Below are positions 2,670-43,021 of a stretch of DNA of 46,663 bases, in pieces. Every line of letters starts with the position of its first letter. The first letter of the stretch is position 1. Made by a program: the position numbers and the translations under genes. Under the pieces are notes generated by a model. It saw nothing but the letters and a program-made list of their open reading frames with translations, searched no databases and was not told the DNA's origin. The stretch is from an uncultured Treponema sp. (GTDB lineage: Bacteria > Spirochaetota > Spirochaetia > Treponematales > Treponemataceae): contig CAMJZA010000022.1 in the NCBI GenBank assembly GCA_946410085.1, positions 1-46,663 on the forward strand, given 5' to 3'.

Positions 2670-3563
2670 ATGAAATTTTATTTATTCGGAGCTGGAAAAT
2701 ATGGAAAGCTCTTTATAGAAAAGAATGGTAAATCAGATATTATTGCCTTTATTGACAATGATTCCAGCAAGCAGTCAAGTAAAAAAAAAGGTGAAAACGA
2801 AATACCGGTTCTATCATATGCAGAATTCAAAGAGGTCTTTAATCCGGAAGCCGAAAGAATAATAATAACCTGCAATAGTGATACCGCCATATATAAGCAG
2901 CTCCATGATGACGGTTTTGCGACATACGTTGCCGGTTTCAGCAAGGCAGGCTTACCGGCAATGAACTATACGCTGTTCAACAGCTACATAAATCTCCTCG
3001 GTATAAACATAACGGAAAGACTTCCGACGCATAAAGACAAGGAATGCATAATAAATGAATTTATCAGTCAGTTCGGCAAAAAGGTACTCGTCGAGACTGG
3101 TACTTACCTCGGAGCAACGGTGACGGCCTTTAAAGACAAGGTTGACTGGATGTCATCGGTCGAAGTGAAAAAAGAACTGTATGAAGATGTTGTAGAAAAA
3201 TTCAAAGACTGCAGCAACGTTCATTTATACCTTGGAGATTCCTCAGACCTTCTTCCCCGTATGATTTCAGACATACCGGATAATATCCGTAACCAAACGA
3301 TCTTTTTTCTTGACGGGCACTGGTCGCAGGGAATAACAGGAAAAGGGAAAAAAGATACCCCAATTCTTGAGGAAGTAAAAATCATACGTGACTTTTATCC
3401 GTCTGACGTAATAATACTGATAGATGATGCCAGACTGTTCAAACATGGGGGAACGGAGGTGTATCCGGATTACTTGGAGCTGCATGCTGTCCTGAAGCAA
3501 CTGTGGCCTAAGGCAATAGTGTTCAGGGAATGTGACATAATTCACGTCATAATTCCTGCTTGA
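2670..3563 (+). CDS. N-terminal Rossmann-like module fused to SAM-methyltransferase-like domain
   Basis: This 297-residue protein has the shared module at residues 1-95 (FYLFGAGKYGKLF, IAFIDNDSSKQSSKKKG, EIPVLSY, IIITCNSD). A class I methyltransferase-like domain follows, with VETGTYLGATV as the SAM-binding loop and FFLDGHWSQG and ILIDDARLF as later acidic strands. It resembles small-molecule or sugar O-methyltransferases in layout, but the substrate is unknown. GGAG at 2660-2663 supports the ATG. The codon stretch at 2781-2789 is a run of nine adenines, a possible slippage site. The arrangement (module first, enzyme second) matches the gene before it. Confidence 0.72.
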   Translation: MKFYLFGAGKYGKLFIEKNGKSDIIAFIDNDSSKQSSKKKGENEIPVLSYAEFKEVFNPEAERIIITCNSDTAIYKQLHDDGFATYVAGFSKAGLPAMNYTLFNSYINLLGINITERLPTHKDKECIINEFISQFGKKVLVETGTYLGATVTAFKDKVDWMSSVEVKKELYEDVVEKFKDCSNVHLYLGDSSDLLPRMISDIPDNIRNQTIFFLDGHWSQGITGKGKKDTPILEEVKIIRDFYPSDVIILIDDARLFKHGGTEVYPDYLELHAVLKQLWPKAIVFRECDIIHVIIPA

Positions 3564-3777: not shown

Positions 3778-5226
3778 ATGATGAAATTTAAAAACAGTAG
3801 CTTTTATCTTTGGTACATTAGGGCAAAAAAGAACGGAAAAAGCATCAGGAACGCTGTTGAAAGAGCCTATTCCCTGAAAAACAGGGAGGCAGCATCCGGG
3901 CCGCAGAAATGCGTCATCTGCATGCACGATAAAAACGGCGGCTATGGCGGCGGCGGCCTTGCCGACCGGCTCAAGGGCATGCTGTGCACCTATTCAGTCT
4001 GCAGGAAATACGGACTGCCGTTCAGGATTCATTTCATTGATCCTTTCCCGCTTCTTGACTATTTTATTCCTGCCGGATATGACTGGCGCATAGAACCCGG
4101 ACAGATAAGCTATGACGTAAAAAGCATACGGATCGTAGCGCTGGACAATACGTCTGACAGCCCCTTCATGCACAGAAAACAGAAGGCATACCTTGAGCGG
4201 AAACTGCGCCGGATAAAGATCCAGACCCACGTGTTTACCAATGCTGCTTTTGTTTCGGGAAAAGAATACGGAATTCTGTTCAACGAGCTGTTCAGGCCGT
4301 CTGAACGGCTGGCAAAATCCATTGCCGAGCAGAAGGGCATCATCGGTCAGAAGTACATCAGCATTTCCTGCCGTTTCCTTAATATGTTCGGCGATTTCAA
4401 TGAAACCTGCTGCCGTAAGAAGATATTTACTGAAAGTGGAAAACAACGGGTACTGGCTGAAATAGACGGAAAAGTCGGGGAACTGCTGAAGGACAATCCC
4501 GGGTGCAGGCTTCTCGTAAACTCTGACAGTACAACGTTCCTGCAATACTGGCGCGGGAAGCCCTGTGCCTATGTCATTCCCGGTACCGTCACTCATATCG
4601 ACAACATTCAGGACGGATACAACTATGAGAAATATGAGAAGACCTTCCTCGATTTCATGATGATAGCTTCTGCGGAAAAAATCTTTGTCCTGGCAAACAA
4701 CTACATGCATATCAGCGGCTATCCGAGGTCAGCATCATTCATTTACGGGAGGCCTTTTGAAACCGTAAGGCTCAGCTGCTATCCTGAAGATGAACTTGTC
4801 GACGACATGACCGCAGGGCTTGCAAGTCCAGAAGGATTCAAAGTTTTTCTTACCAAAAATCCCAATATCCTGAAGACCGTACTGAATGCATCCATGCCCG
4901 GCATTACGGCTGCCGTCATCTGGGGAACCGGTGTATGGGGCAGGGTTGTAAAGGATGTCCTTGCCTTGTATAACATACAGATTCCGTTCTTCATAGACTC
5001 TGATTTGAAGAAATCGGGGACTGACTGCTGCGGTATCCCCGTCAGGTCCCCCGACTGTCTCAAAGGCTATTCCGGTACAGTTTTCATCGCCGTTAAAAGG
5101 CAGGATGCTGACATTGCTGAAACGGCGAAAAAACTGGGCGGTACGGATCTCAATGTCATACGGCTGAGGGATTTCTTGAAATCTGTCACTGCCATTTTGG
5201 TAGAAAAAGGCGGTCCTAATGATTGA
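3778..5226 (+). CDS. fucosyltransferase-like glycosyltransferase with C-terminal Rossmann-like module
   Basis: The 482-residue protein has GGGGLADRLKGMLCTYSVCR near residue 58. This resembles the GG-x-(A/G)-DR-(L/R) nucleotide-sugar loop of the alpha-1,6-/O-fucosyltransferase superfamily (NodZ-like). Later LVNSDS, a conserved D-rich helix and a SGY-(P)-RSAS segment occur in the order seen in that family. A fucose-type donor is therefore plausible but not proven. The shared module occupies about 379-478 (VIWGTGVWGRVV, FFIDSDLKKSGTD, GIPVRSP, TVFIAVK) and is nearly the same as that of the GT2 at 320. Two ATG codons stand in tandem at 3778 and 3781; either could start it. Its end overlaps the next gene by 8 bases, so the two are probably translationally coupled. 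Confidence 0.7.
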   Translation: MMKFKNSSFYLWYIRAKKNGKSIRNAVERAYSLKNREAASGPQKCVICMHDKNGGYGGGGLADRLKGMLCTYSVCRKYGLPFRIHFIDPFPLLDYFIPAGYDWRIEPGQISYDVKSIRIVALDNTSDSPFMHRKQKAYLERKLRRIKIQTHVFTNAAFVSGKEYGILFNELFRPSERLAKSIAEQKGIIGQKYISISCRFLNMFGDFNETCCRKKIFTESGKQRVLAEIDGKVGELLKDNPGCRLLVNSDSTTFLQYWRGKPCAYVIPGTVTHIDNIQDGYNYEKYEKTFLDFMMIASAEKIFVLANNYMHISGYPRSASFIYGRPFETVRLSCYPEDELVDDMTAGLASPEGFKVFLTKNPNILKTVLNASMPGITAAVIWGTGVWGRVVKDVLALYNIQIPFFIDSDLKKSGTDCCGIPVRSPDCLKGYSGTVFIAVKRQDADIAETAKKLGGTDLNVIRLRDFLKSVTAILVEKGGPND

Positions 5227-6499
5227 AATTGACAAATACTGTAATGCAGGAGAAACAATAAAGACCCGGTATCTGATACTCTGGGGAGGCGGAGGATACG
5301 GGAATTCCGCTGCATGCTATCTGCATCTGAATAGCTGCCCTCAGCATGTTCTGATATGCGACAGAAGCTGGAATGACCCGGAGAAACTTGCAGAACGTGT
5401 TTCGTTTGAAAACAGATACCGGGGAGTGTACCTCCAGCCTCTCGATGCCGAATATGTCGGTACTGACAGGCTGAAGGACATTGTCAGTGGAAGCGCCGAA
5501 GATTTTTCTGCCATTATTGCCGTTGCAAAAGATGAGACGGCAGAAGAGATCAGGCGTGAATGCCGTGCAATAGGGATTGATGAAGACAATATCTACCGGT
5601 TCATCAGCGAAAACATCGAAGAAAGAAGCAAAAAGTTCTACCAGAAGAGACTCTGGGGAAAAGCCGGAAAGAATACAATACTTTCTGATGATGTTGCCAA
5701 TGCGGAAATCCGTAACATGGTAAAGAACGGAACCCCTTTCTTAATCTCCCGCTGGGGATCAACTGAGAATACTGCTCAGATGCAGTACATGAACGGATGC
5801 CTGAATGAAGGAAGCCTGTACAACCTTCAGAATGCCAGCGGTATATTTCCTTCCGTCAATGCATCGTTTTTAAAAGCCTATTTTCCTGTCGTAGAGAGAG
5901 CAGCAGCAGAAATTGATTTCTATGTGTGCGGTGCATGGAATCCGTTCGGTGAAGAGCTGCAGGAATTGCTGTCACCCGGTGTACGCCTGGTACTGAACAG
6001 CATGCTTCCTCCCTGCCCGGGAGAAGAAAGCTGGTTCACTGCGCTTGCGGGAAAAAAAGTTCTGATCGTCCATCCGTTTGCCCCGCTGATTGAAAGCCAA
6101 TACAGGAGGCGTACGCTGCTTTGGAAAAATGCCGATGCCGTACTGCCGGAGTGGAATCTGAAGACATACGCCACCGTCCAGTCTTTGGGCGGCAGCGATG
6201 TATATGCTACCTGGCTGGATGCCCTCCACAAAATGGAGGATGACATAGGCAGAATCGACTTTGACTGTGCGCTTATCGCAGGCGGCGGATACGGAATGCC
6301 GCTGGGAGCATTCATAAAGTCAGAGCTAAAAAAACAGGCGGTTCACGTCGGGGGACAGCTGCAGCTCCTTTTCGGAATAAAGGGAAGACGCTGGGATGAA
6401 TGGTTTGGACCAGACCACTATAACGAGTACTGGGTCAGGCCATCCGATGATTTGAAGCCGAAGAATTTCAAGTCTGTCGAGGGAGGGTGCTACTGGTGA
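5219..6499 (+). CDS. N-terminal Rossmann-like module plus GT-D-type glycosyltransferase domain
   Basis: Residues 15-125 hold a divergent copy of the shared module (LILWGGGGYGNSA, LICDRSW, AIIAVAKDE). From about residue 165 the protein matches the GT-D-like (DUF1792-type) glycosyltransferase pattern. FLISRWGSTE carries the acidic residue after the arginine-tryptophan turn, VLIVHPFAPLIESQY follows, and then CALIAGGGYGMPLGAFIK and HVGGQLQLLFGIKGRRWDEW. The order and spacing of these blocks make the fold assignment good, while donor and acceptor are unknown. The gene starts inside the previous one and its TGA overlaps the GTG of the next, so it sits within a coupled block. Confidence 0.75.
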   Translation: MIEIDKYCNAGETIKTRYLILWGGGGYGNSAACYLHLNSCPQHVLICDRSWNDPEKLAERVSFENRYRGVYLQPLDAEYVGTDRLKDIVSGSAEDFSAIIAVAKDETAEEIRRECRAIGIDEDNIYRFISENIEERSKKFYQKRLWGKAGKNTILSDDVANAEIRNMVKNGTPFLISRWGSTENTAQMQYMNGCLNEGSLYNLQNASGIFPSVNASFLKAYFPVVERAAAEIDFYVCGAWNPFGEELQELLSPGVRLVLNSMLPPCPGEESWFTALAGKKVLIVHPFAPLIESQYRRRTLLWKNADAVLPEWNLKTYATVQSLGGSDVYATWLDALHKMEDDIGRIDFDCALIAGGGYGMPLGAFIKSELKKQAVHVGGQLQLLFGIKGRRWDEWFGPDHYNEYWVRPSDDLKPKNFKSVEGGCYW

Positions 6500-7509
6500 G
6501 CGGAAAAGACGATACACAGAAACATGCCGCATTGGAAAGGAATTCATCATTTGAACTGCTAAGAATAATCTGCATTTATGGTATCATATCCATGCATATG
6601 TTCGGACCATACGTTGGAAATGCAACAGGAATTGGAAGAGTATACGGCTGTATGATCTGTTCGGTATTTAATATGGGCGTATCACTGTTTATGTTTATCA
6701 GCGGATATTTCGGTGTTACTTTTTCTGTCGGCAAATTAATCAGGTTACTTGCCATCATCATTTTTTATTGCTTAACAAGCACTGTGTGTAAATATATAAT
6801 GGGGGGGGGCATATCAATAAAGGAAATAACAGAAGATTTCCTTGCAATTTTTAGAAATAGATATTGGTATGCGACCGTTTACATTATTATGTTTTTAATT
6901 TCCGATATCATAAACAGAACTCTGATATCACTAGATAAGGCTGATTTCAACCGATTGATTTTCGTTTTATTTCTGTTTTTTGTCCTGTCGCCGACTATAC
7001 TGCGAACAGAAATTCTCGGTGATGCAGGGAAAGGGATTGTTAATATGTTTTTGGTTTATATCGTCGGGCGATATATTAAAATATACAAAATCAGAATGAC
7101 AATTTTAAAATCATCTTGCCTTGCCACATTAATCATCGGAAGTCTATTTGCAATAACGTTGTTAATGTCTTTTAGAAAAGATTGCGGTATCTCGGCAAGA
7201 CTGTGTCATGATAATTCAGTATTCATCTTTTTCGGTTCATTCTTTACGTTTCTTGCATTTCGGGAATTAGAGTTTAGAAGTAAAATTATAAACAGACTGG
7301 CAAAAGCTGTTTTTGCGACATATCTTTTTGAGGGTACTGCCAGAGGAATTATTACTCGTATTTACAATTGGCAGCCAATTAAAGCTTGCAATGAAGTTTA
7401 TTTCCTTCTGGTTCCCATACTGGTCATTTTACTTGTATTTGCCTTAGAATCCATGAGGCTGTTATTTTTTTCTCGGTCCGAAAATAAAATTGCTGCCGCG
7501 TTATCCTGA
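6496..7509 (+). CDS. integral-membrane acyltransferase (acyltransferase 3 family), poly-G containing
   Basis: About 337 residues with roughly ten hydrophobic segments. It starts with SSFELLRIICIYGIISMHMF, the N-terminal R-x-x-x-x-x-H helix of OafA/WecH-type acyltransferase 3 proteins, which move acetyl or other acyl groups from the cytoplasm onto envelope sugars. I choose the GTG at 6496 because GGGAGG at 6481-6486 lies well placed before it; the GTG at 6487 would sit on top of that site. The GTG overlaps the upstream stop as GTGA. A run of nine guanines at 6801-6809 encodes the glycines in IMGGGIS. Gain or loss of one G would end translation shortly after it, so the gene looks phase variable and is currently ON. 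It lacks the shared module and is A+T-rich. Confidence 0.82.
   Translation: MSGKDDTQKHAALERNSSFELLRIICIYGIISMHMFGPYVGNATGIGRVYGCMICSVFNMGVSLFMFISGYFGVTFSVGKLIRLLAIIIFYCLTSTVCKYIMGGGISIKEITEDFLAIFRNRYWYATVYIIMFLISDIINRTLISLDKADFNRLIFVLFLFFVLSPTILRTEILGDAGKGIVNMFLVYIVGRYIKIYKIRMTILKSSCLATLIIGSLFAITLLMSFRKDCGISARLCHDNSVFIFFGSFFTFLAFRELEFRSKIINRLAKAVFATYLFEGTARGIITRIYNWQPIKACNEVYFLLVPILVILLVFALESMRLLFFSRSENKIAAALS
6801..6809 (+). repeat. poly-G tract (G9) in coding sequence
   Basis: Nine consecutive guanines inside the acyltransferase reading frame. Reading the alternatives by hand, eight Gs gives a TAA a few codons later and ten Gs gives a TAG about 18 codons later. Such homopolymer tracts are classic slipped-strand mispairing sites in surface-glycan genes of other host-associated bacteria. 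Confidence 0.85.
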
Positions 7510-7530: not shown

Positions 7531-8520
7531 ATGCAAACTTTTCATATCAAAGATGACAACACCCTCCTGCACAGCGCCTTTTCCGGTGATAATTTCAAGG
7601 TTATCAACGGAATGGTAACAAACAGAAAATGCATCATCTTCTGTTCTGGCAACGGAATCTGGTTTCCTGACACAGACGGATGCTTCAGGCAGACCATTAT
7701 CAGCCGAGACCGATACGAGTGGAGTTCGACCGCTTCCCATATACTGGACTATGTTGAACGGATTATTTTTATACGGGACCTGCATAAATGCTGGTATGCC
7801 GGGGGAATCAATGGCAGGATAGATTCCATCGATAAACTCGCAGACTTTTTATCCGGGATATGCAAAGGCTTCAGGACCGTTGTAACCGGGAACAGTGCAG
7901 GCGGATACATTGCAAGTCTGCTGGGGTACAAGCTGCATGCAGATTTTGTGCTGAACTGGAGCGGTCAGTGGAACCTCTGGAAATGCGGCAGTGTAACAGA
8001 GGACTACTTTTTCGTGAAAAAATATGCATCCGACGAATCACGCACCCGGTATTATGATATTGTCCCCCTGCTGCAGGACAGCACCGTTCCCGTCTATTAT
8101 TTTTATCCGGCGCACAGTGAACAGGACATCGTTCAGTATGAATGTGCAAAAGTACTGCCTTCGGTATATCCCATAGCACTGGACAGTACACGGCATGGAG
8201 CAGGTGTCAGCGGCAAAGGATATTTTACGCTGCTCCTGTCCGAAAACGCTCAGCTGCAGGAATTGTACAGGAACACTGCCGGAAAAACGCTTGCCACGGC
8301 GGAACTGGAGACTCTGATAGACACGCTTCCCATGGCAGCACAGTATTACGAATTCGATACACCCTTGACGGGAGCTGATAAAACCAAAATTTACCGGGAC
8401 ATGCTTTTAAAATGGGTCCGCATACAGCAGCACGGGAAAAATCTTTTCCGCACCGGAAAATTTACCGGCCTGACATATTTTGCCGTATATGGGAGGGGGG
8501 GGTATCAAAGCTGCTCATAG
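7531..8520 (+). CDS. alpha/beta-hydrolase (esterase-like); C-terminal module cut off by a poly-G frameshift
   Basis: The readable product has 329 residues. VVTGNSAGGYIAS around S122 is a G-x-S-x-G-type nucleophile elbow. HSEQD and the later STRHGAGV offer candidate acid and histidine of a catalytic triad, so an esterase or deacylase acting on a glycan substituent is plausible. At the very end the frame enters FAVYGRGG, the opening of the shared Rossmann-like module, and then leaves it for YQSCS and a stop. The missing remainder continues in another frame to 8756. The break coincides with eight guanines at 8495-8502. With nine the two parts join in frame as YGRGGVSKLLIEEL. The hydrolase domain itself appears complete in either state. 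Neighbouring the acyltransferase suggests opposing roles, which is inference. Confidence 0.75.
   Translation: MQTFHIKDDNTLLHSAFSGDNFKVINGMVTNRKCIIFCSGNGIWFPDTDGCFRQTIISRDRYEWSSTASHILDYVERIIFIRDLHKCWYAGGINGRIDSIDKLADFLSGICKGFRTVVTGNSAGGYIASLLGYKLHADFVLNWSGQWNLWKCGSVTEDYFFVKKYASDESRTRYYDIVPLLQDSTVPVYYFYPAHSEQDIVQYECAKVLPSVYPIALDSTRHGAGVSGKGYFTLLLSENAQLQELYRNTAGKTLATAELETLIDTLPMAAQYYEFDTPLTGADKTKIYRDMLLKWVRIQQHGKNLFRTGKFTGLTYFAVYGRGGYQSCS
8495..8502 (+). repeat. poly-G tract (G8) at the glycine loop of the module
   Basis: Eight consecutive guanines after GGGA. They encode the glycine-rich loop of the Rossmann-like module. With G8 the frame terminates at 8518-8520; with G9 (or G6) it continues to 8756. 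This is the second poly-G tract within 1.7 kb. Confidence 0.85.
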
Positions 8521-8756
8521 AAGAGTTGGGTCTGTCACATAAAAACATACGCTGCATAGTGGAAAGCAGTCCTTCTTCCGTAGACTACGAAGGTTATCCC
8601 GTCATTAAACCAAGCGGCCTGAATGAATCCGTTGAGGCGGTAATCGTTGTTCCCTTTTATGACATGGGTGCAATACGGTCTGCATTGCTTGATGCAGATT
8701 ATAAAGGTCTGATATGCGGCCTTGACGAACTGCTGGAACAGGCTGATGCCGGCTAG
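8502..8756 (+). other. out-of-frame C-terminal Rossmann-like module of the hydrolase gene
   Basis: This frame encodes SKLLIEELGLSHKNIRCIVE, then DYEGYPVIKPSG, AVIVVPFYD and a final helix-strand ending in EQADAG. It aligns position by position with the rest of the shared module (I-x-C-I-V-E for the FID strand, G-Y-P-V for GIPV, V-I-V-V for the AV-K strand). There is no credible start or ribosome site of its own, so it should be read as the 3' part of the gene at 7531, expressed only when the poly-G tract changes length. Confidence 0.8.
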
Positions 8757-8843
8757 CGTCATTTCATGGCGAAAACATACAGCAGGAAATATTTACCAGC
8801 TTTTTTACCAATAGGCTGGCATAGAACGAGGTGTGAAAAGCTG

Positions 8844-9734
8844 ATGAAAAAGAAACTGATACTCTATGGAGCCGGTAAAATTGGAAAGAAATGGCTGGAC
8901 AAGTTAGGTTCGGAAAATGTATATGGATTTGCGGATACCAATCGGTCAGAGCCTGTATATGCAAAACCATTGCTTTCATTAATCGATTTAAAAAAGGATT
9001 GTGAAAATATTGTCATATTTATCAGCACTTCTGCTCAATATAAAACAGTAATAAAGGAACTTTTAGCGCGAGAGGGTCTTGAAAAACTCCTGATAGATTA
9101 TCCACTTTCTGAAAAGATGATCAGGTGCATGGATGGATCTTATGTTGATACAGAAAGCGAATTTGAAGGGCATAATTATTTAGGACCAGATACCATTATG
9201 TCCAATGCAAAAATTGGTTATGCAACTTATTTTGCCGGAAACTGTACAATTACGGATGCAGTTATTGGTAGATACTGTGCAATAGCTAAAAACGTGGTAT
9301 TCATTTCTGGCCAGCATCCTGCTCGTAATATGGTATCAATCCATCCCTCGTTTTATTCGGCTGTGAATCCTGTAGTTGATTTTCACTATACTAGTGAGCA
9401 GAAATTTGAGGAATTCAGATATATCTCCGGGAGGGGAAAGGTGCGATTTGAAATCGGAAATGATGTCTGGATAGGTGAAGGTGCTAAAATCATGGAAGGC
9501 GTTACAATCGGTGACGGCGCTATCATTGCTGCAGGTGCGGTTGTAGTTAAAGATGTAAAAGCATACGAAATTGTTGGTGGTGTCCCTGCAAGATTCATCA
9601 GAAATAGGTTTACTGAAAATGAGAAAAGATACCTCCAGAAATTACAGTGGTGGAATCGAGGGGAAGAATGGATCCGCCGTTTTGCCGAATACTTTACGGA
9701 TGTGAAACTATTAATGGAAAAGTTTCCTGTTTAA
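8844..9734 (+). CDS. PglD/LpxA-like hexapeptide acyltransferase with N-terminal Rossmann-like module
   Basis: From the ATG at 8844 the protein has 296 residues. The module comes first ([33 protein letters not shown]), exactly where sugar O/N-acyltransferases of the PglD type carry a Rossmann-like sugar-nucleotide-binding domain. A left-handed beta-helix follows with hexapeptide repeats: [19 protein letters not shown], then [18 protein letters not shown] and [12 protein letters not shown], ending in GGVPARFI as in CatB/NeuD-like enzymes. SGQHPARN holds a candidate catalytic histidine. I prefer 8844 over the ATG at 8766 because the module starts there and the 26 extra residues are unlike any domain. 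It probably acylates an amino or hydroxyl sugar precursor. Confidence 0.82.
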
Positions 9735-9757: not shown

Positions 9758-10999
9758 ATGACTACCGAAAGTTTTGAACTTTATACACCGGTTGCATATA
9801 TAATATTCAACCGGCCGGACTGCGTACGGCGCAGCTTTGAGAGCATACGAAAAGCAAGGCCAAAGAAACTGTTTGTCATTGCGGACGGTCCGCGTGATGA
9901 CCATCCTGATGAAGGGAGACTCTGCGCTGAGTGCCGAGAGATAGTTACAAACATTGACTGGGACTGTGAGGTGTATCGCAGGTATTCAGATGTAAACTTA
10001 GGATGCGGACCATGCATTGCGGCCGGGATTTCATGGGTGTTCTCGCAGGTTGAAGAAGCCATACTCATCGAAGATGACTGCGTCCCGTCGATGAGTTTTT
10101 ACAGGTTCTGTCAGGAGATGCTTGAATGTTATAGGAATGACAAACGGGTATTGTCCATATCCGGCCTGGGGTTCGGACATGAGAATGATAGTAGCGGGGA
10201 TTACTTCTTCAGTCGATTCCATAATCCCTGGGGATGGGCAACATGGAAACGAGTCTGGGATATGTATGACTATGATATGAAAGACTATCCGCGTTTTAAA
10301 AAAAGTCCCCAACTGAGAGAATTGCTCATCCGAAAGGATTATGTTGATTTTTGGTACAATATTTTTGACATGATGTATGAGAAAAGGGGGCCTTCCACGT
10401 GGGACTATCAGTTCATGTTCCTCTCATTTGTACACAAAGGTTTGCATTTGCACCCCAAAAAGAATATGGTTCAGTGCATCGGATGGGGAGATACTGCTAC
10501 CCATTGTAAAGACTCACCTTCGGAAGGAAGCGTACTTTCAAAGCTTTCCCTTATGCCGGAAGAAATGGATTTTCCCATACATACCCTGCACGATGTTACT
10601 GATGATTATGCATTTGACTGCAAGCGGATGGAATTTGGTCACGGTGTTCCGATTGATGGGAAAAAACATCTCTGGGAACTGTCGGAGAATGAACTGAATG
10701 CCATGCGGTCCGCAGAGAATCTGATTGTCTACGGTGCGGGCCGGGGATGCTGGGAGCTGATATGCCTCCTGGGGAAAGAAGGGATAAACCGATTCCGTGT
10801 CGCCGTTACCAAGGGTGATGGTGATGCGTATGTTATGGGTAACAAGGTCGTTGAGATAGCGGATCTTGTTTCAATGAAGGATACCGCTCTTGTCGTTATC
10901 GCGGTTAAGTCAGAAACCGCAATACGAAGCATGAAAACTGAATTAGAACGGCTCGGCTTTACCCGGTACATTGCATTGGGAGAGGGGAAAGGTGCATGA
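9758..10999 (+). CDS. GT2-like glycosyltransferase with C-terminal Rossmann-like module
   Basis: About 413 residues. The N-terminal GT-A-like domain has TPVAYIIFNRPDCVRRSFES, LFVIADGPRDD, NLGCGPCIAAGISWVF and EEAILIEDDCVPS, the last carrying the acidic metal-site residues. NPWGWATWKRVWD and the following acidic helix are typical of a glycosyltransferase group often annotated as nucleotide-diphosphosugar transferase. The shared module covers about 318-410 (LIVYGAGRGCWELI, RVAVTKGDGD, GNKVVEIADL, LVVIAVKSE). The first glycines are kept but the usual third position is a cysteine. I choose ATG 9758 because GAAAGGA lies 6 bases upstream and the domain begins soon after. Its stop overlaps the next start (ATGA). 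Confidence 0.78.
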   Translation: MTTESFELYTPVAYIIFNRPDCVRRSFESIRKARPKKLFVIADGPRDDHPDEGRLCAECREIVTNIDWDCEVYRRYSDVNLGCGPCIAAGISWVFSQVEEAILIEDDCVPSMSFYRFCQEMLECYRNDKRVLSISGLGFGHENDSSGDYFFSRFHNPWGWATWKRVWDMYDYDMKDYPRFKKSPQLRELLIRKDYVDFWYNIFDMMYEKRGPSTWDYQFMFLSFVHKGLHLHPKKNMVQCIGWGDTATHCKDSPSEGSVLSKLSLMPEEMDFPIHTLHDVTDDYAFDCKRMEFGHGVPIDGKKHLWELSENELNAMRSAENLIVYGAGRGCWELICLLGKEGINRFRVAVTKGDGDAYVMGNKVVEIADLVSMKDTALVVIAVKSETAIRSMKTELERLGFTRYIALGEGKGA

Positions 11000-12228
11000 G
11001 ACCTCTGATTAGCGTTATTGTGCCAGTATATAATGTCGAAGCATACCTTTGCTTTTGTCTGGACAGTGTGCTCTCACAGACACTTCAAGATTTCGAGGTT
11101 ATATGTATTGACGATGCGAGCTCCGATTCTTCCTATAAAATTCTTAGCGAATATGCCCATAAAGACAGTCGCATTCATGTCTTAAGGAATGGGCAGAACA
11201 AGGGTTTGTCCTATACGCGCAATGTCGGGTTGGATGCTGCAAAAGGAACATATATTTATTTTCTTGATTCAGATGATACCATAGTTCCTGAGTGCCTTGA
11301 GAAGGCATGCCATGCAGCAGAGGAGAATGCTGCTGATTTTGTCATGTTCGGAGCCAAACTACTGCAGGATGGAAGGCAACGTACATATGTGAGTTTTACA
11401 CAACAGATATGTGATAAGGTTTGGAACGGGAGGGAACTTTTTACAGTTCTGCAGAATAGTCCAGCAGGTATATTTAGCTGTGTACAGTTCAAATTATGGC
11501 GAAGTGCTTTTCTTTTACAATTCGGACTTCGATTTTATGAGGAAATTTATTATGAAGATTTGCTTTTTAATTTTTCTACCATGATGTATGCTAAGAAAAT
11601 TGTTTGCATACCAGACTTGCTTTATCACTATTGTCGTCGGTGTAACAGCATTATAATGCAAAAAAAGGATTTTAAGCATATCTATAGTTATCTAATCAGC
11701 ATAGACGAAATCAAGAATATTTTTTTTAGAACTGAAAATACTTTCTTCCCTGAAGAAAGAAAGGCTTTTTTTGATTACATAGTAATTCTGTGTCAGCACG
11801 CAATGTCTATGATGTCATCGTTTGGATTAGAAAAATTACCGGATGATTCTAATCTGTTCGATTCTTCGAAACGGGATCTGTTTTTTTTCCTTCGTGCAAT
11901 GGCAAGCCGTAAATTCGGTGGTTCCTTTAGTCAAGGTGAAGTGGATTATTTAAAATGTTTTAAGTATATCATTGTCTACGGAGCCGGGAAAAAGGCAAAA
12001 AAGGTGCTCCCTGAGCTTTTGAAAAATGATATAGAAAATTTCGATATAGTTGTTACTTCGAAAAACGGATGTCAAGAAACTTTATACGGTTTCCCGATAA
12101 AAGAGATAGGTTCTATAGATTATCCGAAAGAAAAATGCGTCGTCATTGTGGCAGTAGGAACAAAACTTGAGCAAGAAATACAGGAAAACGTAAAAAAACT
12201 TGGATATGAAAATGTTTTATCATTTTAA
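10996..12228 (+). CDS. family 2 glycosyltransferase with C-terminal Rossmann-like module
   Basis: The 410-residue protein opens with a textbook GT2 domain: ISVIVPVYNVEAYL, VICIDDASSDSSY, GLSYTRNVGLDAAKG and YFLDSDDTIVP with the DSDD metal site near residue 92. The acceptor-side half has YEEIYYEDLLF, usual in wall and capsule GT2 enzymes. From about residue 320 comes the shared module (YIIVYGAGKKAKKVL, FDIVVTSKNG, GFPIKEI, CVVIVAVGTK). Here the second glycine of the loop region is replaced by alanine. The start overlaps the preceding stop, so the two genes are translationally coupled. The gene is A+T-rich compared with those at 16.9-26.5 kb. GGGGAAAGG at 10984-10992 supports the start. Confidence 0.87.
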   Translation: MRPLISVIVPVYNVEAYLCFCLDSVLSQTLQDFEVICIDDASSDSSYKILSEYAHKDSRIHVLRNGQNKGLSYTRNVGLDAAKGTYIYFLDSDDTIVPECLEKACHAAEENAADFVMFGAKLLQDGRQRTYVSFTQQICDKVWNGRELFTVLQNSPAGIFSCVQFKLWRSAFLLQFGLRFYEEIYYEDLLFNFSTMMYAKKIVCIPDLLYHYCRRCNSIIMQKKDFKHIYSYLISIDEIKNIFFRTENTFFPEERKAFFDYIVILCQHAMSMMSSFGLEKLPDDSNLFDSSKRDLFFFLRAMASRKFGGSFSQGEVDYLKCFKYIIVYGAGKKAKKVLPELLKNDIENFDIVVTSKNGCQETLYGFPIKEIGSIDYPKEKCVVIVAVGTKLEQEIQENVKKLGYENVLSF

Positions 12229-37164: not shown

Positions 37165-38601
37165 ATGGCAGAAAAACAAAAGGACCTGTATCTGGAGTGC
37201 AGTGCGGGAATCAGCGGCGATATGGCAGTTGCGGCCTTGCTTGACGCAGGGGCAGATGCGGAAGTCCTGAATGCCGTCCTGCGGTCGATTCCGGCAGCCG
37301 GATTTCAGACCGAGATCCGGCGGGTCAGCAAAGGGGGCGTTGACTGCTGTGACTTCAACGTGATTCTGGACGCCGGGCACGAGAATCATGACCACGACAT
37401 GGAGTACCTGTTCGGACACGAGTCCGGGGGCAGCCTGACAGAACACGCACATCATCACGAGCATGAGCATGACGGCCAGCACGAACACCATCACGACCAC
37501 GGACATGACGACCTGCACGAACACGAGCACCCGGGACATGCCCACGAGCACCGGGGGCTTGCCGAGATAAACGCAATCATCGATGCGACGCAGATGACGG
37601 AAGGGGCGAAGTCGCTTGCCCGGAAAATCTTCAGGATTCTTGCGGAAGCCGAATCAAAGGCGCATGGAATTCCGGTCGGGCAGGTGCACTTTCATGAAGT
37701 CGGGGCCATCGATTCCATCGTGGACGTGATTGCCCTGGCGGTCTGCTTTGACAGCCTGCAGGTCGGAAAGGTTTACGTCCCGTCGCTGACCGAAGGCCGG
37801 GGGAGCATCCGCTGCCAGCACGGCATCCTGCCCGTGCCGGTTCCCGCTGTTGCAAACATCGTTTCGGCCTATGGCATTCCCCTTTCGTTCATCGGGGACC
37901 GCGGCGAGTTCGTCACGCCGACCGGGGCAGCCTTTGTCGCTGCCGTCCGCACCGATGCAGAACTTCCCAAATCATTCATCATCAGGAGAACCGGAATGGG
38001 GGCGGGAAAGCGGGCGTACGAGCGGCCGAACATCCTGCGGGCCTTTATTATAGAGGAAAACTGCGGGTCAACGTGCGGGGCAGCTGCGGACGGGGCGGGA
38101 CGGCCGGTAGAATTCAACGGCGCCACCGCAGATACCGGCGATTACATCGTAAAGCTTGAAACGAACATCGACGACTGCACTGCCGAACAGCTCGGCTTTG
38201 TGTCGGAGGAACTGTTTAAGGCGGGTGCGCGGGACGTTTCCTTTATTCCCTGCCAGATGAAAAAGAACCGGCCGGCTACCCTGCTGAACGTCATCTGCGG
38301 TGGGGCGCAGGTTCCGGCGCTGGAAGCGCTCATCTTCCGCCACACGACGACGATCGGTATCCGGCGGGTGAAATATGAGCGGACGGTCCTGCCCCGCGAG
38401 CCGTTTACGGTACAAACCGCATGGGGCGGAGCGCAGGCAAAGAAAGTCCGCCTCCCCGACGGGGAACTCCGCGTATACCCCGAGTACGAGAGCGCCGCCC
38501 GGATTGCCCGGGAGCAAGACCTCCCGTACGGGCAGGTCTACCGCGAAATTGAGCGCCGGGGGCAGGAGATGCTTTCCGGCGCTGCGGCCGGAACCTTGTA
38601 A
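37165..38601 (+). CDS. larC: LarC, nickel insertase, as one uninterrupted reading frame
   Basis: The 478-residue protein has LECSAGISGDMAVAALLDAG at the start, VHFHEVGAIDSIVDVIALA, GRGSIRCQHGILPVPVPA and, in the C-terminal half, KLETNIDDCTAEQLGFVSEE and KKNRPATLLNVIC. LarC uses CTP to insert nickel into the dithiocarboxylate cofactor. Residues 70-130 are extremely His/Asp/Glu-rich (HEHEHDGQHEHHHDHGHDD), a probable nickel store. In Lactobacillus plantarum larC is split into two frames joined by programmed frameshifting; here the frame is continuous. No larA (lactate racemase or another pincer enzyme) is visible in this window. Confidence 0.93.
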   Translation: MAEKQKDLYLECSAGISGDMAVAALLDAGADAEVLNAVLRSIPAAGFQTEIRRVSKGGVDCCDFNVILDAGHENHDHDMEYLFGHESGGSLTEHAHHHEHEHDGQHEHHHDHGHDDLHEHEHPGHAHEHRGLAEINAIIDATQMTEGAKSLARKIFRILAEAESKAHGIPVGQVHFHEVGAIDSIVDVIALAVCFDSLQVGKVYVPSLTEGRGSIRCQHGILPVPVPAVANIVSAYGIPLSFIGDRGEFVTPTGAAFVAAVRTDAELPKSFIIRRTGMGAGKRAYERPNILRAFIIEENCGSTCGAAADGAGRPVEFNGATADTGDYIVKLETNIDDCTAEQLGFVSEELFKAGARDVSFIPCQMKKNRPATLLNVICGGAQVPALEALIFRHTTTIGIRRVKYERTVLPREPFTVQTAWGGAQAKKVRLPDGELRVYPEYESAARIAREQDLPYGQVYREIERRGQEMLSGAAAGTL

Positions 38602-42393: not shown

Positions 42394-42888
42394 TCACCCT
42401 AGCCCGGCGGCGAGTTTCTCCACTTCCGCGAGGGAAAGGCCGGTTGCCCCGGCTATCTGCTCATGGGAAAGTACTCCCATATCAAGCAGGTTCCTGGCAG
42501 TCTCACAGGCTTTTTCCTCGCGCCCGCGCTTCATACTGTCTTCCCGCCCCTCGTTCCGCACGTCATAGTCGTGCAGGCTCCATGAGAAGTAAAGCTTCTT
42601 CGTTCCCTCAATCCTTTTCTGCGCTTCAACCATTTCCCGCAGCCTCCTCGTAAACTCAGACTCCGCCTCGTCCGTCTGGACATACTTCATGAACGCCCGC
42701 AGCTTCGGGTCCTTCACTTTCGCATACGCCCGGCAGTTCAGTACGTGCACGGTGGCGGCATCGCCTACTACCACGCTCCCGTCCTCTTCGCATTTCCGCC
42801 GTACAGTATACCACGGAATTCCCTTTTTGTAAGGGTCAAAGTGGCACAGGAAGATGATGATGCTCGCGGTGTGTTTAACACGGTGCAC
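42394..42888 (-). pseudogene. truncated Rpn-type PD-(D/E)XK nuclease/transposase fragment
   Basis: The frame (164 residues) carries the C-terminal half of the Rpn family (recombination-promoting nuclease/putative transposase): IIIFLCHFDPYKKGIPWYT, VRRKCEEDGS, KDPKLRAFMKYVQTDEAE, a basic KRGREEKACETARNLLDMG helix and IAGATGLSLAEVEKLA at the end. The N-terminal half with the catalytic core's first acidic residues is missing. Similarity stops at ASIIIFL, exactly where a 23-bp tandem repeat array begins, so the gene was probably cut by the array or by a rearrangement there. It cannot be an active nuclease. Confidence 0.8.
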
Positions 42889-43021
42889 ACGGCATGTTTA
42901 ATACGGTGCACGCGGTGTGTTCAATGCAGTGCACACGCTGTGTTTAACACGGTGCACGCGGTATGTTTAACACGGTGCACGCGGTGTGTTCAATACGATG
43001 CACTCGGTGTGTTTCGCCCGG
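42861..43021 (+). repeat. minisatellite, seven tandem 23-bp units
   Basis: Seven head-to-tail units of exactly 23 bases (42861, 42884, 42907, 42930, 42953, 42976 and 42999). The consensus is TGCACGCGGTGTGTTTAACA followed by CGG. Each unit contains GTGCAC- and TGTTTAACA-like palindromes across unit borders. There are no spacers, so this is not a CRISPR array. The unit length is not a multiple of three. Confidence 0.92.

Follow-up and report, generated by a model that had tools for sequence, protein, structure and literature searches.

Can nine consecutive guanines within a membrane acyltransferase gene from an uncultured Treponema sp. act as a switch that turns the gene on and off? The run lies at positions 6801-6809 (plus strand) of the window, by which we mean the whole 46,663-nucleotide stretch of DNA that was analysed (NCBI GenBank assembly GCA_946410085.1, contig CAMJZA010000022.1), and the original prediction took it for the seat of likely phase-variable glycan acylation. 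Our analysis indicates that this G9 tract is probably a translational phase-variation switch of the acyltransferase (AT3) gene. Phase variation is the best reading because of the genomic context and not because of the run by itself, the context counted here being an excess of long runs in the host genome, tracts in glycan and lipoprotein genes, the G8 or G9 of the neighbouring gene and its relatives, tracts in AT3 homologues, and runs throughout the genus.

The gene itself (6496-7509, plus strand, GC 0.355) is in frame as assembled and encodes 337 residues. Its predicted identity as a membrane acyltransferase is borne out by a match to the Acyl_transf_3 profile (Pfam PF01757; E 3e-15, 56.5 bits versus a curated cut-off of 31), and the protein carries an RX10H motif at residues 23-34 (R23-H34), a motif of the first membrane segment in the AT3 family. 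The probable start, GTG 6496, is preceded at suitable spacing by a purine-rich GGGAGGG and overlaps the stop of the upstream gene (5219-6499, plus strand, with a weak GT-D-like match), so placed that translational coupling of the two is possible; an ORF tool gives GTG 6487 as an alternative start. The AT3 membrane fold has ten helices; a structure predicted from an input of four sequences is all-helical, with a mean pLDDT of 55 that is too poor for fold matching, and a fold search with this low-confidence model returned no significant structural match; a sequence search for solved structures found no relative of either the AT3 protein or the hydrolase-like protein encoded next to it. In 200 genus genomes searched there was no close orthologue of the AT3 gene, and hence no natural length variant of its tract that could be compared. 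Relatives in a genome-contig search were only 23-25% identical, came from Lachnospiraceae and had no tracts, and a flank pattern had no match in viral contigs.

Direct reading and a pattern search agree on the nine guanines, which are read in frame as ATG GGG GGG GGC, i.e., residues 102-105 of the protein; in the low-confidence model (mean pLDDT 55), residues 102-107 form a loop after a helix at 78-101. Frame translation bears out the predicted early stops on either side: G8 yields 107 residues and G10 yields 119, versus 337 for G9, so that a change of one base in either direction shortens the product, while lengths of G6, G9 and G12 stay in frame. A promoter-type role like that of the Treponema pallidum tracts, upstream of a transcription start or between the -35 and -10 elements, was considered and rejected, as the tract is found 305 bases into the coding frame.

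Among the alternatives, chance has to be weighed at greatest length. It would mean that a three-glycine loop happens to use GGG codons, and that the tract, being of insufficient length or too stable, does not switch and the gene is simply expressed. Base composition speaks against it, a run of at least nine G being expected only 0.0008-0.0024 times (about 0.001) in this AT-rich gene, so that the tract is longer than expected for its gene; it is also longer than expected for its genome. The excess is weaker once the MGGG peptide is taken as given, a G9 then arising in 4% of synonymous permutations, and across the whole window runs of at least eight G are unremarkable, three being observed versus 2.1 expected under dinucleotide shuffling. 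Also counted against the switch are the other seven of the eight AT3 genes in the host genome, the window's being the only one with a poly-G tract. The length of the G9 is weak evidence taken alone and no proof of function. We nevertheless regard chance as unlikely, since the hydrolase-like neighbour has a length-variable tract of its own and tracts appear to have been gained independently in three AT3 homologues, both of which are described below.

A further alternative concerns the genes around the tract. The AT3 gene belongs to a co-directional surface-glycan cluster (320-26527, plus strand) in which Pfam scans identified glycosyltransferases, methyltransferases, a hexapeptide transferase, two LicD proteins and an ABC exporter. 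In this setting, out-of-frame tract lengths would leave about 680 untranslated bases and might lower downstream expression, one tract thereby switching several genes. The tight packing favours such polarity, with the AT3 start lying over the upstream stop and 21 bases separating the AT3 stop from the start of the following gene; it would, however, supplement the frame switch and not replace it, and we hold it to be quite unlikely as the explanation of the tract. The GC content of the cluster genes ranges from 0.35 to 0.51, in a genome whose sampled value is about 0.55, and because it varies so sharply the cluster suggests a mosaic of acquired genes; those of low GC (0.35-0.39) are at 1601-2614, 6496-7509, 8766-9734 and 10996-12228, and the others are at 0.40-0.51. 

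Given its family and the surrounding cluster, the AT3 protein in all likelihood carries an acyl group, usually acetyl, over the inner membrane to a surface glycan that the cluster makes. Of the phase-variable glycan acylation originally proposed, the frame switch is likely, and the acyl group and the glycan target are conclusions from family and neighbourhood.

Long G/C runs are not confined to the window. The host genome has 24 runs of at least nine, with a clear excess at ten and above and a moderate one at nine: there are 24 exact G8 runs versus about 13-25 expected by extrapolation, 13 exact G9 runs versus about 2-6, and 11 runs of at least ten versus about 0.2-2, all figures that are approximate because the background sample is biased and because two G15 runs with common flanks lie at contig ends. 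Stretches around the tracts were analysed along with this background, a 407-kb sample, chiefly of stretches without long tracts and with the window included (GC 0.554), which contains 2060, 527, 86 and 11 runs of lengths four, five, six and seven, respectively. The two G15 runs (G000:C40:51-65 and G000:C57:1-15) share the same flank and probably represent a single repeat at which the assembly broke. Several of the runs of at least nine G occur at sites without evident function, which counts against the switch. Many others lie on the sense strand of glycan-enzyme or putative lipoprotein genes. Among the former are a G11 in a DUF5672/GT2 glycosyltransferase gene and a G9 in a GT2 gene, and on contig C38 two methyltransferase genes separated by 10.8 kb have a G13 and a G9, respectively. 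Besides these two methyltransferase tracts, a third gene in the same region (G000:C38:1-20000, L125) has an 8-base run, antisense. FlaA, a flagellar family of spirochaetes, was matched three times in the host genome and in 0 of 14 control genomes.

The other poly-G tract of the locus was predicted to be 1.7 kb away, and it is indeed found in the next gene downstream, as a G8 at 8495-8502 (plus strand). This gene is assembled as a 329-residue frame (7531-8520, plus strand) that stops 18 bases past the tract, which itself falls in a glycine-rich motif, AVYGRGG; another frame (8503-8756, plus strand), with which the G8 is out of frame, continues to 8756 and would be joined to the gene as a C-terminal part of about 79 residues only at other tract lengths. 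The same genome has a paralogue on contig C25 (L111:681-1918), 92.6% identical in DNA, which shares both the G8 and the early end; this contig also carries further glycan genes and an AT3 gene of its own. Species G166 has an orthologue that is 80% identical in protein sequence, carries a G9 and reads through to 411 residues, and in L112:9878-11113 the C-terminal frame is contiguous with the hydrolase-like gene. Comparison of paralogue and orthologue therefore shows a tract that is conserved between species and differs in length, G8 versus G9, with an effect on the frame. The protein matched no family model above threshold, and because of its GNSAGG motif it suggests an alpha/beta-hydrolase. 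The proposed phase variation of an esterase-like neighbour is partly supported, in that the tract is present and differs in length between related copies, the word esterase-like resting on GNSAGG; what changes is the C-terminus. Because the tract switches the last ~79 residues and the presumed catalytic part with GNSAGG is made either way, its action may be something other than simple on/off switching.

The strongest evidence that G tracts of the host genome change length with an on/off effect comes from a family of putative lipoproteins. Four related putative lipoprotein genes, whose bodies are 34-56% identical over parts of their length, have G8, G9, G10 and G13 at the same site after CNGNGG or CTGNGG, and the signal peptide joins the body only in the G9 copy; two more relatives (contigs C28 and C12) have a G9 in frame. 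Altogether, six putative surface lipoproteins with poly-G are found (L077 and L141 on C7, L082 on C31, L086 on C40, L081 on C28 and L078 on C12), with tracts of 8-13 at or near the signal peptide, directly past the lipobox in five of the six, and out of frame in three of the six as assembled. In L078, a five-base CTCTT repeat array directly follows the G9 in the signal-peptide region (3010-3060), a possible second slippage site of the same gene. Slippage of RNA polymerase or of the ribosome, by which one DNA length would yield mixed frames, would suit the hydrolase-like gene, where both paralogues have the same out-of-frame G8, but it is very improbable given the in-frame G9 of the orthologue, the four DNA lengths among the lipoprotein relatives, which argue for change at the DNA level, and the lack of a second frame of any length past the AT3 tract.

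Phase variation at the DNA level is also consistent with the wider genus, in which an anchored pattern detected runs of at least nine G in 185 of 196 genomes, with 0 to 81 per genome. Among 27 AT3 homologues from genus genomes (22-33% identical), three have an in-frame G8 or G9, and their alignment columns (118 for the G9 of L053, 456 for the G9 of L051 and 57 for the G8 of L042) differ from one another and from that of the window's AT3 gene (167), which points to independent origins of the tracts. A gene adjoining the AT3 homologue L044 carries a G9 and reads MGGGLGNQMFEYA, a glycine-rich start of the kind known from GT11 fucosyltransferases. Somewhat short of an even chance, and thus only tentatively, we propose that the whole genus, whose spirochaetes are mostly uncultured, possesses a large poly-G phasome by which surface glycans vary together with a family of lipoproteins. 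Its tracts would have arisen repeatedly where glycine codons fall in loops or glycine-rich motifs, and some, such as that of the hydrolase-like gene, would exchange C-terminal domains instead of turning genes on or off.

For the AT3 gene, slipped-strand mispairing in replication would add or remove G residues. The assembled length, or lengths differing from it by multiples of three, would give the whole protein, and other lengths would end it after 107-119 residues, i.e., after about three predicted helices, presumably without a working enzyme. If the AT3 and hydrolase-like tracts slip independently, up to four combinations could result from the two loci; with the methyltransferase, glycosyltransferase and lipoprotein tracts added, a population with varied surfaces might arise, with a presumed biological benefit.

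Simple-repeat phase variation is best documented in small-genome pathogens, and the switch of the Haemophilus influenzae AT3 gene oafA consists of tetranucleotide repeats, not of poly-G. The oafA gene confers phase-variable O-acetylation of lipooligosaccharide and so resembles the present case as a phase-variable AT3 acyltransferase modifying a surface glycan, although it belongs to another phylum and its acetylation is proven, whereas that of the AT3 protein is presumed (PMC9558356); in Salmonella Typhi, rhamnose is acetylated by way of an OafB homologue, subject to epigenetic phase variation (PMC9558356). The poly-G tracts of T. pallidum (tprE/G/J, tprL and tp0126) are likewise those of a spirochaete, consist of about 7-11 G, a range over which they vary within isolates, and belong to surface-related genes; the characterised ones, however, act in promoters (PMC7864442), whereas the window's tract belongs to the coding frame of a gene for a glycan-modifying enzyme. 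Campylobacter has poly-G/C contingency genes such as Cj1295, a gene of flagellin glycan modification, with coding-frame G/C homopolymers in glycan-modifying genes, several per genome (PMC3068675); enzyme class and lineage differ from those of the AT3 gene, whose tract is known from a single assembly. A catalogue of homopolymeric tracts exists for cultured treponemes of cattle and humans, and the tract distributions and tract-derived pseudogenes that it reports in Treponema genomes are a likeness to our case; neither acyltransferase nor phase variation turned up when its text was searched for these terms (PMC8049484). A literature search on phase variation in gut or commensal spirochaetes found no study of a poly-G AT3 case. 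The mechanism, that of a poly-G contingency locus, is already known, and its setting is little studied. If the switch is confirmed, coding-frame poly-G systems would be known also from a large spirochaete genus that has received little study. A set of switches acting on glycan acylation, glycan methylation and lipoproteins could matter for resistance to phages or for dealings with a host, and where such assemblies have genes annotated as truncated, these may show one momentary state only.

Repeats of other kinds also occur in the window: about seven 23-base units form an array at 42859-43014, with a three-unit period of 69, and repeats at 37444-37563 encode a histidine-rich stretch inside a nickel insertion protein gene.
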